A stretch of 64,000 nt of DNA from Bacteroidia bacterium (GTDB lineage: Bacteria; Bacteroidota; Ignavibacteria; UBA10030). The notes beneath the pieces were generated by a model. The model had not been told where the DNA came from, searched no databases, and worked only from the letters and a program-made list of their open reading frames with translations. Shown here one piece after another: positions 44,071-48,453 of this stretch (the first letter of the stretch is position 1; each line of letters starts with the position of its first letter). The position numbers and the translations under genes are program-made. The stretch lies in NCBI GenBank assembly GCA_022180565.1, contig BQML01000009.1:62001-126000 (forward strand), given 5' to 3'.

Positions 44071-44271
44071 TTACCGCCGCTTGTCCGGGGTGAACACTTC
44101 TTCAACGGTCTTACCGAACACCCGCGCGATTTTAAACGCCAGGGGGAGCATGGGATCGTATTTGTCGTTCTCGATCGCGTTCACTGTCTGCCTCGATACC
44201 CCAAGCTTGCCCGCGAGTTCCTCCTGGGACATCTGCCTGGTTTCCCGGAGTTCGCGAATCCTGTTCTTCAA
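44071..44271 (-). CDS. XRE-family transcriptional regulator (YozG-like)
   Basis: 66 residues consisting almost only of a helix-turn-helix: NRIRELRETRQMSQEELAGKLGVSRQTVNAIENDKYDPMLPLAFKIARVFG, typical of the YozG/SinR-like small regulators. TTG start chosen; the TTGA overlaps the stop of the upstream membrane-protein gene, giving coupled translation. It probably controls its own promoter through two 18-bp operators (44677-44694, 44723-44740). Confidence 0.88.
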   Translation of the reverse strand: MKNRIRELRETRQMSQEELAGKLGVSRQTVNAIENDKYDPMLPLAFKIARVFGKTVEEVFTPDKRR

Positions 44272-44663
44272 CGGTACCGACTCCGTGCAAGTGCAAGGCC
44301 GATGAAGTAGAGCATCGGGAGCAGAGCCCACACATGCCGGTAGCTCAAGTCTTCCGGCGGCAAAGGAACCGCAAGTTCCAGCAGGCCGAGCGTCATCAGA
44401 ATGACCATGGTCACGGGGAAGGCGATCCCCAGCGCCTCGAGTTGGATCCGCTGTTCGAGCTCATCCATCGCTTTGAGGCGTGCAACAATAGCCGTGAGCA
44501 GCCAAGCGAAGGGAGCAACCGGGATCAAGGCTGCAAGGATCCGAAGAGGCATGTCTGCGCCCTCGATACTGAGGATCATTCTTGCCGCAAAGAAGGTTGC
44601 GACAAAAAGGACGGCAGCAGCAAGGCCGCGGCGGCCGACGGGGGAAATGCGTGTGGTGTCCAT
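44268..44663 (-). CDS. Small membrane protein paired with the XRE regulator
   Basis: 131 residues with about four hydrophobic segments (LAAAVLFVATFFAARMIL, LRILAALIPVAPFAWLLTAIV, TMVILMTLGLLELAV, VWALLPMLYFIGLAL). No family recognised. GGAGGT precedes the ATG by 3-4 bases. Co-transcribed with the XRE gene and possibly the regulator's signal source (inference). Divergent from norB. Confidence 0.78.
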   Translation of the reverse strand: MDTTRISPVGRRGLAAAVLFVATFFAARMILSIEGADMPLRILAALIPVAPFAWLLTAIVARLKAMDELEQRIQLEALGIAFPVTMVILMTLGLLELAVPLPPEDLSYRHVWALLPMLYFIGLALARSRYR

Positions 44664-44676
44664 GGGACCTCCGAAA

Positions 44677-44694
44677 TGTAAAGTATTCTTGACA
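44677..44694. promoter_or_regulatory. 18-bp operator copy 2 (TGTAAAGTATTCTTGACA)
   Basis: 16 of 18 bases identical to the perfect palindromic copy at 44723-44740. It lies downstream of the -10 of the XRE promoter, so a bound protein could block elongation or form a repression loop with copy 1. Confidence 0.6.
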
Positions 44695-44699
44695 TCCCT

Positions 44700-44728
44700 A
44701 ATGTACGCCCTGAAACGATCGTTGTCAA
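44700..44728 (-). promoter_or_regulatory. Promoter of the XRE/membrane-protein operon
   Basis: On the minus strand TTGACA, exactly 17 bases, TACATT. The -35 is inside the perfect operator TGTCAAG...CTTGACA (44723-44740), so regulator binding would exclude RNA polymerase. Confidence 0.7.
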
Positions 44729-44740
44729 GTACTCTTGACA
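44723..44740. promoter_or_regulatory. 18-bp operator copy 1 (TGTCAAG-TACT-CTTGACA)
   Basis: Perfect 7-bp arms TGTCAAG and CTTGACA around a 4-base centre. It covers the -35 of the XRE operon promoter. A second, nearly identical copy lies 46 bases away. Probable target of the XRE regulator (inference). Confidence 0.65.
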
Positions 44741-44753
44741 TACCAATTTGCCG

Positions 44754-44782
44754 TTGACGAATGATCAACGGCTGGTTATATT
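44754..44782 (+). promoter_or_regulatory. norB promoter with overlapping palindrome
   Basis: TTGACG at 44754-44759, 17 bases, TATATT at 44777-44782. The palindrome CCGTTGA-N7-TCAACGG at 44751-44771 covers the -35 and most of the spacer. The odd spacer length (7) does not fit a classical FNR/CRP box, so another dimeric regulator is likely. Confidence 0.6.
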
Positions 44783-44838
44783 GTTTTGATCATTTCTGTC
44801 CGCTGATGAAGCATAACTCATCCTGAAGGAGGCCTGCT

Positions 44839-47064
44839 ATGCGTCGGCTCTGGTTGGCGTTTTGGATCGTGATCGTCGGATCTTTCCTGGTTCTGGGCTG
44901 GAGCGGTCTACGGATCTATCAGGAACGCCCGCCCATCCCCGACGCGGTGGTCACGCCCGAGGGGCTGGGGTTTTTGAGATCCGACAATATTCTGAACGGC
45001 CAGAACGTTTGGCAGGCCATGGGCGGGATGCAGATCGGTTCGGTGTGGGGACATGGAAGTTACGTGGCTCCCGATTGGACGGCGGACTACCTCCATCGTG
45101 AACTGGTTTTTATTCTGAACGAATGGTCCCGTGATGCCCACGGGAGAGATTACGACGCCCTCTCCGAAGCCGACCAGGCTTCTCTGAGGGCGCGTTTGCG
45201 AAGCCTCATTCGCACAAACACATACGACGTCGCCAAGCGCACAATGACGATCGATCCCGTGCGCGTTCGCGCGTTCGAGGACAATGCCGTATATTACGCC
45301 GATGTGTTCTCGAACGGGCGGGAGGCCTTCGCCATTCCGCGGGGCGCCCTTACCGATCCGGAGAAGCTTAGGGACCTGACGGCCTTCTTCTTCTGGACAT
45401 CGTGGGCGGCCTCCACCAATCGCCCAGGCCAGACCCTGACCTACACGAGCAATTGGCCTCATGAACCGCTCATTGACAACGTGCCGACTGCGGACGCTGT
45501 CATTTGGACCGGCGTGAGCATCATTTTGCTCCTAGCCGGCATCGGCGGCATGGTATGGTACCACGGTGCCCAGGCCACTCGTCCAGCCGCAGCATATTTC
45601 ATTCCGGATCAGGATCCTCTCCTGTTGGTCGAACCAACTCCGTCACAGAAGGCAGTGGTCAAGTACTTCTGGGTTGTCACTGGGCTCTGGATCGTTCAGA
45701 TCATCATGGGCGTGATCACGGCCCATTACGCAGTGGAGGGAGACGGATTTTACGGCATTCCCTTGAGCGAGACGGTCCCTTACGTCATTACGCGCACCTG
45801 GCACATTCAGCTGGGGATCTTCTGGATTGCGACCGCATGGCTTGCAGCAGGATTGTATCTTGCACCGGTGCTTGCCGGCTTTGAGCCGAAGAGACAGCTT
45901 CTCGGCGTCAATATCCTCTTTGGCGCTCTCGTGCTGGTGGTTGCGGGATCCATGGTCGGGCAGTGGATGAGCATCCATCACCGGCTCGGAGGGGATTCCT
46001 GGTTCTACTTCGGCCACCAGGGGTATGAGTACATCGACCTCGGGAGGATTTGGCAGATCGGCTTGTTTGCCGGACTGGTTCTATGGGTGTATCTTGTTGG
46101 CCGGGCCGTCTTGATCGCCCTGAGAAGATCGCCGGCGGAAAAACCGCTCTTGATGTTGTTCCTGATCGCGAGCATTGCCATCGGGGCCTTTTACGCGGCA
46201 GGCCTGGTCTGGGGCCAGCGTACGAATCTCGCCATCGTGGAGTACTGGCGGTGGTGGGTGGTGCATCTCTGGGTCGAGGGCTTCTTCGAAGTGTTTGCTA
46301 CCGTCGTCATCGCTTACTTCTTTTCGCGGCTCAGTCTGATTCGCGTGGAGACCGCGAACCATGCCGTCATCTTCTCTTCGACGATCTTTCTCTCCGGCGG
46401 CATCATCGGTACCCTGCATCATCTCTACTTCTCAGGCACACCCACGGCCATCCTGGCCCTTGGCGCAGTGTTCAGCGCTCTTGAAGTCGTGCCCCTCGTC
46501 ATCATCGGTTACGAAGCATGGGAGAATATTAGGTTGGCACGAGAGAAGGAGTGGATCAAGAAATATCGCTGGCCAATTTATTTCTTTGTTTCGGTCTCAT
46601 TCTGGAACCTGGTAGGCGCCGGCCTCTTCGGCTTCATGATCAATCCTCCTATTGCATTGTACTACATGCAAGGCCTGAACACCACGCCCGTGCATGGACA
46701 TACGGCTCTCTTCGGCGTGTACGGGATGCTCGGGATCGGACTGATGCTGTTCTGCCTCCGCGTTCTTTGGGTGAAGGAGGAATGGAAAGAGGGATTGCTG
46801 AAGTTCTCCTTCTGGTCCCTGAACATCGGCTTGATGGCAATGGCTGTGATGAGCCTGCTTCCGGTGGGATTATATCAGACCTGGGCGTCCGTCGAGCACG
46901 GCTACTGGTATGCCAGGTCGGCCGAACTTTTCGAGCAGCCGGTGATGAGCGTGCTGAAGTGGCTCCGCGTGCCGGGCGACACCGTATTCGCTTTGGGGGC
47001 GGCGGCACTCACGCTATTCGTGATCGGGCTGGTGACCGGTTTTTCGCTGAAGCGCAAGACATAA
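44839..47064 (+). CDS. norB: Quinol-type nitric oxide reductase, large subunit
   Basis: Membrane enzyme that reduces 2 NO to N2O with quinol as donor (qNOR, NorZ type). 741 residues: an N-terminal extension (~1-230), fused equivalent of NorC lacking a haem-binding CXXCH, then the 12-helix haem-copper core. Visible ligands: His in RTWHIQLG (low-spin haem) near 322, HLWVEGFFE near 476 (FeB His and the NOR-specific Glu), LHHLYF near 527 and HGHTALFGVYG near 620. The Glu argues for true NOR rather than the Gln-variant NO dismutase. GGAGG before ATG. Detoxification is more likely than full denitrification, since no other denitrification genes are seen. Confidence 0.95.
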   Translation: MRRLWLAFWIVIVGSFLVLGWSGLRIYQERPPIPDAVVTPEGLGFLRSDNILNGQNVWQAMGGMQIGSVWGHGSYVAPDWTADYLHRELVFILNEWSRDAHGRDYDALSEADQASLRARLRSLIRTNTYDVAKRTMTIDPVRVRAFEDNAVYYADVFSNGREAFAIPRGALTDPEKLRDLTAFFFWTSWAASTNRPGQTLTYTSNWPHEPLIDNVPTADAVIWTGVSIILLLAGIGGMVWYHGAQATRPAAAYFIPDQDPLLLVEPTPSQKAVVKYFWVVTGLWIVQIIMGVITAHYAVEGDGFYGIPLSETVPYVITRTWHIQLGIFWIATAWLAAGLYLAPVLAGFEPKRQLLGVNILFGALVLVVAGSMVGQWMSIHHRLGGDSWFYFGHQGYEYIDLGRIWQIGLFAGLVLWVYLVGRAVLIALRRSPAEKPLLMLFLIASIAIGAFYAAGLVWGQRTNLAIVEYWRWWVVHLWVEGFFEVFATVVIAYFFSRLSLIRVETANHAVIFSSTIFLSGGIIGTLHHLYFSGTPTAILALGAVFSALEVVPLVIIGYEAWENIRLAREKEWIKKYRWPIYFFVSVSFWNLVGAGLFGFMINPPIALYYMQGLNTTPVHGHTALFGVYGMLGIGLMLFCLRVLWVKEEWKEGLLKFSFWSLNIGLMAMAVMSLLPVGLYQTWASVEHGYWYARSAELFEQPVMSVLKWLRVPGDTVFALGAAALTLFVIGLVTGFSLKRKT

Positions 47065-47075
47065 CGAGAGCCGCC

Positions 47076-47879
47076 GTGAGCGACGGTTTTCAGCGACTCC
47101 TCTTCTCCCTTGCAGCCCGTTCCGGCATCCATGGGAAACTGCGCATGCTTTCCCGCGGCGGAAACACAAGGGCGGAACTCCTCCGTGCCGCGATCCGTTC
47201 CACCGAGCTCAGGGAGTTATCTGCCCTTGAACGCGAGTGGGTTCAGAATATCGAGCGGCTTCGCTCCTCCCTCGCATCGTCACAGACCGTTGTGAAACTT
47301 GCCGGCTATGGTGCCGACCCAACGGTGACGGTCAGAACCGTCGGTCAAATTTGTCGGAGTTCAGCAGTTTCATCCGTCTGGGGGCTTTTCCTCTTTAACC
47401 TTGTCCGACGGTTTCGCCCTGCGTCCTGCGTCGAACTGGGAACATCCTTGGCAATTTCCGCGTCGTTCTTGGGAGCGGCGTGTGAACTTAACGGGCACGG
47501 CCATGTCACGACGCTTGAGGGCGATCCCGCGCTGGCCTCACTGGCTGTACAGAATTTCACGACGTTGGGTTTTTCCCGTCTTTCCGTTGTCCAAGGCCCT
47601 TTTGAGGAAACGCTGCCCGTAGTGCTGAGCCGCAACGCCCCGGTCGACTTCGCGTTCATTGATGGCAATCACGACGAGGAAGCCACGAAGAGGTACTTCA
47701 ACGAAGTTCGCATCCACCTCTCTCCCACCGGACTGATCGTGTTCGACGACATTCTCTGGTCCAAAGGAGTGTCCAGAGCCTGGAAGGACATCAGCGGGAA
47801 CGCATTGCCATCCCTGGCCATGAGTTTTGGGAGAATGGGCGTGTATCTGGAGAATGGCGGATTGAAGATTGATGTTTGA
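47076..47879 (+). CDS. Class I SAM-dependent methyltransferase
   Basis: 267 residues with an O-methyltransferase-like fold: SAM motif VELGTSLAISASFLGAA near residue 115, LEGDPALASLA, and FAFIDGNHDEEATKRYFNE near 190, typical of Methyltransf_24. GTG start chosen 11 bases after norB. It continues directly into the Crp/Fnr gene with an 8-base overlap. Substrate unknown. Confidence 0.84.
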   Translation: MSDGFQRLLFSLAARSGIHGKLRMLSRGGNTRAELLRAAIRSTELRELSALEREWVQNIERLRSSLASSQTVVKLAGYGADPTVTVRTVGQICRSSAVSSVWGLFLFNLVRRFRPASCVELGTSLAISASFLGAACELNGHGHVTTLEGDPALASLAVQNFTTLGFSRLSVVQGPFEETLPVVLSRNAPVDFAFIDGNHDEEATKRYFNEVRIHLSPTGLIVFDDILWSKGVSRAWKDISGNALPSLAMSFGRMGVYLENGGLKIDV

Positions 47880-48453
47880 CCTTTTGCGCGCGCATATCGG
47901 GAAGCGGATCAAGTTGACGGATGACGAGTTCCGCCGGTGTACGGCGTATTTCACGCAGAAAAAGATCCGGAAGAGGCAGTTTCTGCTCCAAGAAGGCGAA
48001 GTATGCCGCGACATCGCGTTTGTCACCGGCGGATGTTTGCGGGCGTACACCGTTGACCACAAAGGAAACGAGCATGTCATCCAGTTTGCCGTGCCTGATT
48101 GGTGGATCTCGGACCTGGCCAGCTACCTGGGCGGTTCCCCGGCCATGCAGTCCATCGACGCCCTCCAAGACTCCAAGGTTCTTCTCCTGGATCGCTCTGC
48201 CCGCGATGAGTTGCTCAATGCTGTCCCCGCGCTCGAGAGGTTCTTTCGTCTTCTTCTGGAAGCCAACTACATTGCCACCCATCGGCGCATTCAGGATTCG
48301 CTCAGCGCCTCTGCCGAAGAGCGCTATTTGACCTTTATTGCAACCTATCCCGATCTTTCTGAACAGATCCCCCAGGCGCAGATTGCCTCTTATCTTGGGA
48401 TCACGCCTCAATCTCTGAGCCGGATCCGTCGCGAGCTCATGCGGAGCCGGTGA
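47872..48453 (+). CDS. Crp/Fnr family transcriptional regulator
   Basis: 193 residues: cyclic-nucleotide-binding-like beta barrel (about 20-120) and C-terminal helix-turn-helix AQIASYLGITPQSLSRIRRE. It lacks the N-terminal cysteine cluster expected for FNR-type oxygen sensing. Such regulators often control NO-responsive genes in Bacteroidota; norB, the methyltransferase and this gene share an orientation, and the YceI gene follows. ATG chosen, overlapping the methyltransferase end. Confidence 0.85.
   Translation: MFDLLRAHIGKRIKLTDDEFRRCTAYFTQKKIRKRQFLLQEGEVCRDIAFVTGGCLRAYTVDHKGNEHVIQFAVPDWWISDLASYLGGSPAMQSIDALQDSKVLLLDRSARDELLNAVPALERFFRLLLEANYIATHRRIQDSLSASAEERYLTFIATYPDLSEQIPQAQIASYLGITPQSLSRIRRELMRSR

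Follow-up and report, generated by a model that had tools for sequence, protein, structure and literature searches.

Organization of the locus

The window (the whole 64,000-nucleotide stretch of DNA that was analysed) carries on its minus strand a small operon encoding a predicted membrane protein and a regulator of the XRE family. Two near-identical palindromes, here called operators in anticipation of their putative function, surround its predicted promoter. The features of the region are as follows:

44723-44740, minus strand: operator 1, the upstream copy, TGTCAAG-N4-CTTGACA; the operon's -35 hexamer forms its inner half
44723-44728, minus strand: predicted -35 hexamer TTGACA, part of the upstream palindrome
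44700-44705, minus strand: predicted -10 hexamer TACATT, at a spacer of 17
44677-44694, minus strand: operator 2 (downstream), TGTCAAG-N4-CTTTACA as read on the minus strand, directly upstream of the Shine-Dalgarno
44667-44672, minus strand: Shine-Dalgarno-like GGAGGT for the membrane gene
44268-44663, minus strand: membrane partner gene, 131 aa, four predicted transmembrane helices, D67-E68; ATG at 44663, TGA ending at 44268
44071-44271, minus strand: XRE regulator gene, 66 aa, CylR2-like; TTG start at 44271, end at 44071
44839-47064, plus strand: norZ-like nitric oxide reductase gene, divergent from the operon

In the direction of transcription, operator 1 (with the -35) is followed by the 17-bp spacer, TACATT, operator 2, GGAGGT and the ATG, and further on the TTG start of the XRE gene overlaps the TGA of the membrane gene. 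The predicted transcription start, about 7 bases past the -10, would fall at the edge of operator 2. Four genes scanned around the pair encode SDR, nitric oxide reductase, Crp/Fnr-type and DUF5916 proteins.

The norZ-like gene has its own putative promoter region (44750-44794, plus strand; TTGACG-N17-TATATT). A perfect 9-bp inverted repeat (AATGATCAA / TTGATCATT) spans the -10 of this promoter and an 8-bp hairpin its -35. The gene for the Crp/Fnr-type regulator (47869-48453) lies downstream of the norZ-like gene, and an open frame at 46551-47879 (plus strand), which overlaps the norZ-like 3' end, looks class I methyltransferase-like by eye near its end.

The initial annotation had described two near-identical 18-bp palindromes around the XRE promoter, one overlapping the -35 of a TTGACA-N17-TACATT promoter and the other, a 16/18 copy, just past the -10. 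This description proved accurate. The upstream palindrome (44723-44740, TGTCAAGTACTCTTGACA) pairs at 7 of 7 arm positions and contains TTGACA; the downstream one (44677-44694, TGTAAAGTATTCTTGACA) follows TACATT and is identical to the first at 16 of 18 positions. The spacing between the two sites, each 18 bp long, is 46 bp. No third match to the motif with up to three mismatches was found in the whole 64 kb, and 100 dinucleotide shuffles of the window gave no match at this threshold. Taken alone, the dyad is unremarkable, because the window contains six perfect 7-4-7 palindromes. The case for operators thus rests on duplication, placement and conservation elsewhere, rather than on the dyad itself.

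Conservation of the motif upstream of homologous XRE genes

The pattern TGTMAAG-N4-CTTKACA was set from both window copies before homologues were tested, and 80 homologous loci were picked by XRE protein similarity only, with peptide patterns including SRQTVNAI in the locus search. Within 1200 nt upstream of the XRE gene, the motif was present in 76 of the 80 loci with at most two mismatches (at least two sites in 63), in 63 with at most one mismatch and in 39 without mismatch, counts that are not independent events, because numerous loci come from close relatives (Lysobacteraceae, Brevundimonas, Chloroflexi). At the same three thresholds, the region downstream of the XRE gene matched in 1, 0 and 0 of the 80 loci and the reversed pattern in 3, 0 and 0. 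None of 60 permuted half-sites matched more than one locus with up to one mismatch. The first operators comprise 69 distinct sequences among 79 (window included), and a de novo search for gapped palindromes ranked TGTCAA-N6-TTGACA and the GTAAAG/GTCAAG forms first. The initial annotation had proposed a motif search upstream of homologous XRE/membrane pairs and had counted absence of the palindromes from such operons against its reading; they turned out to be present.

When the upstream search was extended to 1600 nt, the motif was found in 78 of the 80 loci. No site was detected at L018, where the contig stops 110 nt upstream, or at L041, despite an intact-looking pair (best candidate with 5 mismatches). 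The search was likewise negative around L089 and L090, two more remote XRE homologues at which no neighbouring membrane partner is seen. A genome of the same family as that of the window (G018) encodes an XRE protein with 74% identity and a truncated or decayed partner, and no operator was found there. Judging from record titles, the loci presumably belong to Verrucomicrobiota, Pseudomonadota, Bacillota, Acidobacteriota and Chloroflexota, with further ones in Deinococcota, Bacteroidota, Balneolia and Actinomycetota, which we take to represent at least eight phyla overall. Plasmid pairs with an SRQT helix had two sites each in three cases out of three (two Streptomyces, one Pseudomonas; four records examined from 569 matching ones). 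A Priestia plasmid pair with a different recognition helix had only an A-rich variant of the operator.

Architecture of the promoter

Operator spacing ranges from 20 to 47 bp across homologues, 44 to 47 being the commonest values. Among the 65 loci with two sites (window included), the right half of operator 1 has the G of TTGACA in 62, versus 29 for the last operator (Fisher p ~1e-10). Seventeen is the favoured spacer between operator 1 and a -10-like hexamer: 27 of the 79 loci (counting the window) have it, and none of the other spacers between 5 and 39 is seen in more than 6. At spacers of 16-18, such a hexamer follows the first operator in 33/65 loci and the last one in 4/65; the -10 test was positive in only 36 of 79 loci. 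From the counts of this G and the -10 spacing, it is operator 1, not the second copy, that provides the -35, so that the two sites would form a double lock on a single promoter.

A divergent promoter starting from operator 2 was also considered and rejected, an opposite-strand -10-like hexamer being found in 1 of 45 loci (spacing of at least 37). Several Chloroflexi loci have a third, weaker site over the -10, which is absent from the window. Operator position 7 (A versus G) associates with XRE residues such as residue 36, an association that seems linked to lineage (Bacillota) and is uncorrected for the tree.

Distribution of the sites across genomes

In the window's own genome, the exact matches are the two operon sites only, and allowing one mismatch added a single site, within a long coding frame. 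When this genome and 60 relatives were searched, exact sites occurred in 2 of the 61 genomes, the site of the other genome lying inside a long reading frame; exact sites were absent from the remaining 59, most of which are without this XRE. In 46 genomes, covering 46 of the 80 homologous loci, exact sites were at the operon in 54 cases out of 54. Allowing one mismatch in the 34 genomes that have an exact site gave 92 sites, of which 68 belong to the operon and 24 lie away from it; the reversed control pattern gave 45.

A wider regulon was therefore rejected: in the 46 genomes exact sites are found at the operon only, and one-mismatch sites away from it are not in excess of the control. The motif looks like a private switch of its operon. 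The initial annotation had combined strong autorepression by the XRE protein of the operon with a candidate motif for its regulon. As far as sequence comparison can tell, autorepression is strongly supported by the 76 of 80 loci, with the same relation to the -35, and the regulon is not supported, all 54 exact sites lying at the operon.

In one Steroidobacter locus (L122:1970-2503), a further operator pair precedes an additional membrane partner gene, which is followed by a decayed XRE gene; the two operators of this pair are among the 24 off-operon sites.

The XRE protein and its membrane partner

The XRE protein contains an HTH_3 domain, and its nearest PDB sequences in phmmer searches were 9K3W (identical at 35 of 60 aligned positions, E 4e-19) and CylR2. 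The CylR2 match (1UTX) covers residues 3-61 (E 2.2e-12), with 28 of 59 aligned residues identical. Residues R27, Q28, A32 and E34 are invariant in 81 aligned XRE proteins, in the region also covered by the search patterns; the invariance of the recognition helix is thus partly built in, because these patterns included SRQTVNAI. The best antitoxin model, TIGR03070, scored 41.5 bits, below its curated cut-off of 71.65.

For the partner encoded in the window, neither Pfam nor NCBIfam gave a match above noise, and DUF2178 did not match either. A set of 71 aligned partners gave only scattered weak matches to these databases, and the family is largely missing from both. An AlphaFold model of the partner has four helices, the second one kinked (mean pLDDT 91), and a fold search of the PDB found nothing within an E threshold of 0.001. 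An Asp-Glu pair follows helix 2: all of the 71 aligned partners have D67, and at least 90% of them have E68. Bacillota partners are shorter and alignable over the Asp-Glu region, with a weak hhalign probability of 61. A script called a partner next to the XRE gene in 74 of the 80 loci (71 upstream, 3 downstream), and an evident one was recognised by eye in L025, L005 and L079; neither approach found a partner in L018, L032 or L039. Three loci (L022, L060 and L070) have two membrane partner genes in tandem, with a single operator pair and a single XRE gene for both. With a family mostly lacking a Pfam or NCBIfam model, the conserved operator offers a sequence handle for annotation.

The XRE protein was found at E 1e-10 in 4 of the 61 genomes (own genome plus 60 relatives); the membrane partner was found in 2. 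This scarcity among relatives of the window suggests that the pair was gained by transfer or has frequently been lost.

Proposed mechanism and alternatives

Placement and conservation argue for repression by XRE dimers bound at these sites, and we consider autorepression through the two palindromes very probable. Dimers of the 66-aa protein would bind both palindromes on the promoter of their own operon. A dimer on operator 1 would cover the -35 and one on operator 2 the transcription start, so that occupation of both would shut off the operon, in a tight negative feedback restricted to this promoter. The four-helix membrane protein might sense a signal associated with the envelope and alter the grip of XRE on its operators, the Asp-Glu segment after helix 2 perhaps conveying the signal. 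Such a signalling role, modelled on the one proposed for CylR1/CylR2, we regard as an even chance.

Could the dyads reflect chance, or plain repetition of a -35? TTGACA is a -35 consensus and perfect 7-4-7 dyads occur six times in the window. However, the second copy is not located at a -35, and the shuffle, homologue and genome controls go far beyond chance; the homologue controls rule this explanation out, leaving it a negligible probability. The position of an operator alone cannot tell which protein binds, and another regulator encoded by the chromosome might occupy the palindromes, the XRE gene being a mere passenger. This is extremely unlikely, given that the exact sites of 46 genomes all lie at the XRE operon, that 59 of 61 genomes, most without this XRE, have none, and that the motif travels with the pair on plasmids.

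The operators would keep their role if the operon were a toxin-antitoxin-like module, with a toxic membrane protein and an XRE acting as self-repressing, antitoxin-like partner. A small overlapping gene pair with a putatively autorepressing XRE does resemble type II modules, and antitoxin-type models, TIGR03070 among them, give the protein a score. Yet that of TIGR03070 remains under the curated cut-off, the partner is a well-ordered predicted four-helix protein with a conserved motif, and some relatives carry two partner genes per operon; we hold this interpretation to be very improbable. Besides autorepression, XRE bound at operator 1 might act on the divergent norZ-like gene, whose sigma-70-like promoter (TTGACG-N17-TATATT) has its -35 beginning 13 bp past the operator. 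There is a precedent in Enterococcus, where CylR2 represses a divergent promoter according to the relevant part of PMC3709268. Nevertheless, the divergent gene differs from locus to locus, and no nitric oxide reductase is among the divergent-neighbour families listed (25 of 44; 63 loci), which makes this additional control rather unlikely. Autorepression of the operon by its own XRE protein remains our preferred reading.

As to what the membrane partner might sense, the mersacidin-family neighbours in Priestia, together with alpha/beta-hydrolase and TraB/PrgY neighbours, point to peptides or other compounds that act on membranes, as a lead only. Of 47 downstream genes, many of them from closely related loci, 16 match the alpha/beta-hydrolase family and 4 match TraB/PrgY/GumN.

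Comparison with known systems

Autorepressors of the XRE family acting on palindromes are already well known. In the main text of their survey of XRE palindromes, Wang et al. 2025 report autoregulatory palindromes upstream of XRE genes, 9 of 10 tested palindromes bound in gel shifts and 223 motif clusters (PMC12565409). The motif strings that we searched do not occur in this main text; the operator motif may figure among the 223 motifs. A search of open-licence PMC papers found no published description of this motif or of the XRE/membrane pair, nor any paper on 9K3W, the PbsX-family regulator that is the closest solved sequence to the window's XRE.

A Streptomyces plasmid pair resembles that of the window in its two operators and its Asp-Glu motif. 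In contrast to the window's partner, which has no DUF2178 match, its partner scores above the DUF2178 cut-off, and its gene order is reversed. A second XRE/membrane operon, with a TRQTI helix, occurs in a Chloroflexi genome that also has a main pair (L124); the -35 of this second operon overlaps an operator copy that carries one mismatch. On a Priestia megaterium plasmid (L127), two mersacidin-family lantibiotic genes come immediately after a related XRE/membrane pair, an arrangement that recalls the cytolysin locus.

The closest parallel is with CylR1/CylR2, the cytolysin regulators of Enterococcus faecalis. As in the window, the regulator is a 66-aa XRE protein of the same subfamily and, in the published excerpts, is co-encoded with a small membrane protein and has its operator at the promoter. 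In the relevant passages of two reviews (PMC3709268, PMC5454873), the membrane protein CylR1 is thought to relay an outside signal, by a route described there as unknown, to CylR2, which then leaves the promoter. Compared by description only, CylR1 has three helices (as stated in the same part of PMC3709268), versus four predicted for the window's partner. Unlike the cytolysin system, the window's pair has no lantibiotic or other recognised target beside it and probably controls its own promoter. It is conceivable, at somewhat less than even chance, that the four-helix sensor, the XRE protein and the two operators form a compact membrane-to-promoter module whose DNA word has been kept in at least eight phyla, and of which CylR1/CylR2 would be a specialised branch wired to a lantibiotic operon. 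If the module works like CylR1/CylR2, many pairs that are simple and harmless (from Dyella to Chloroflexi and Streptomyces) would be available for study, and the defined two-operator promoter would report on the action of the membrane partner.
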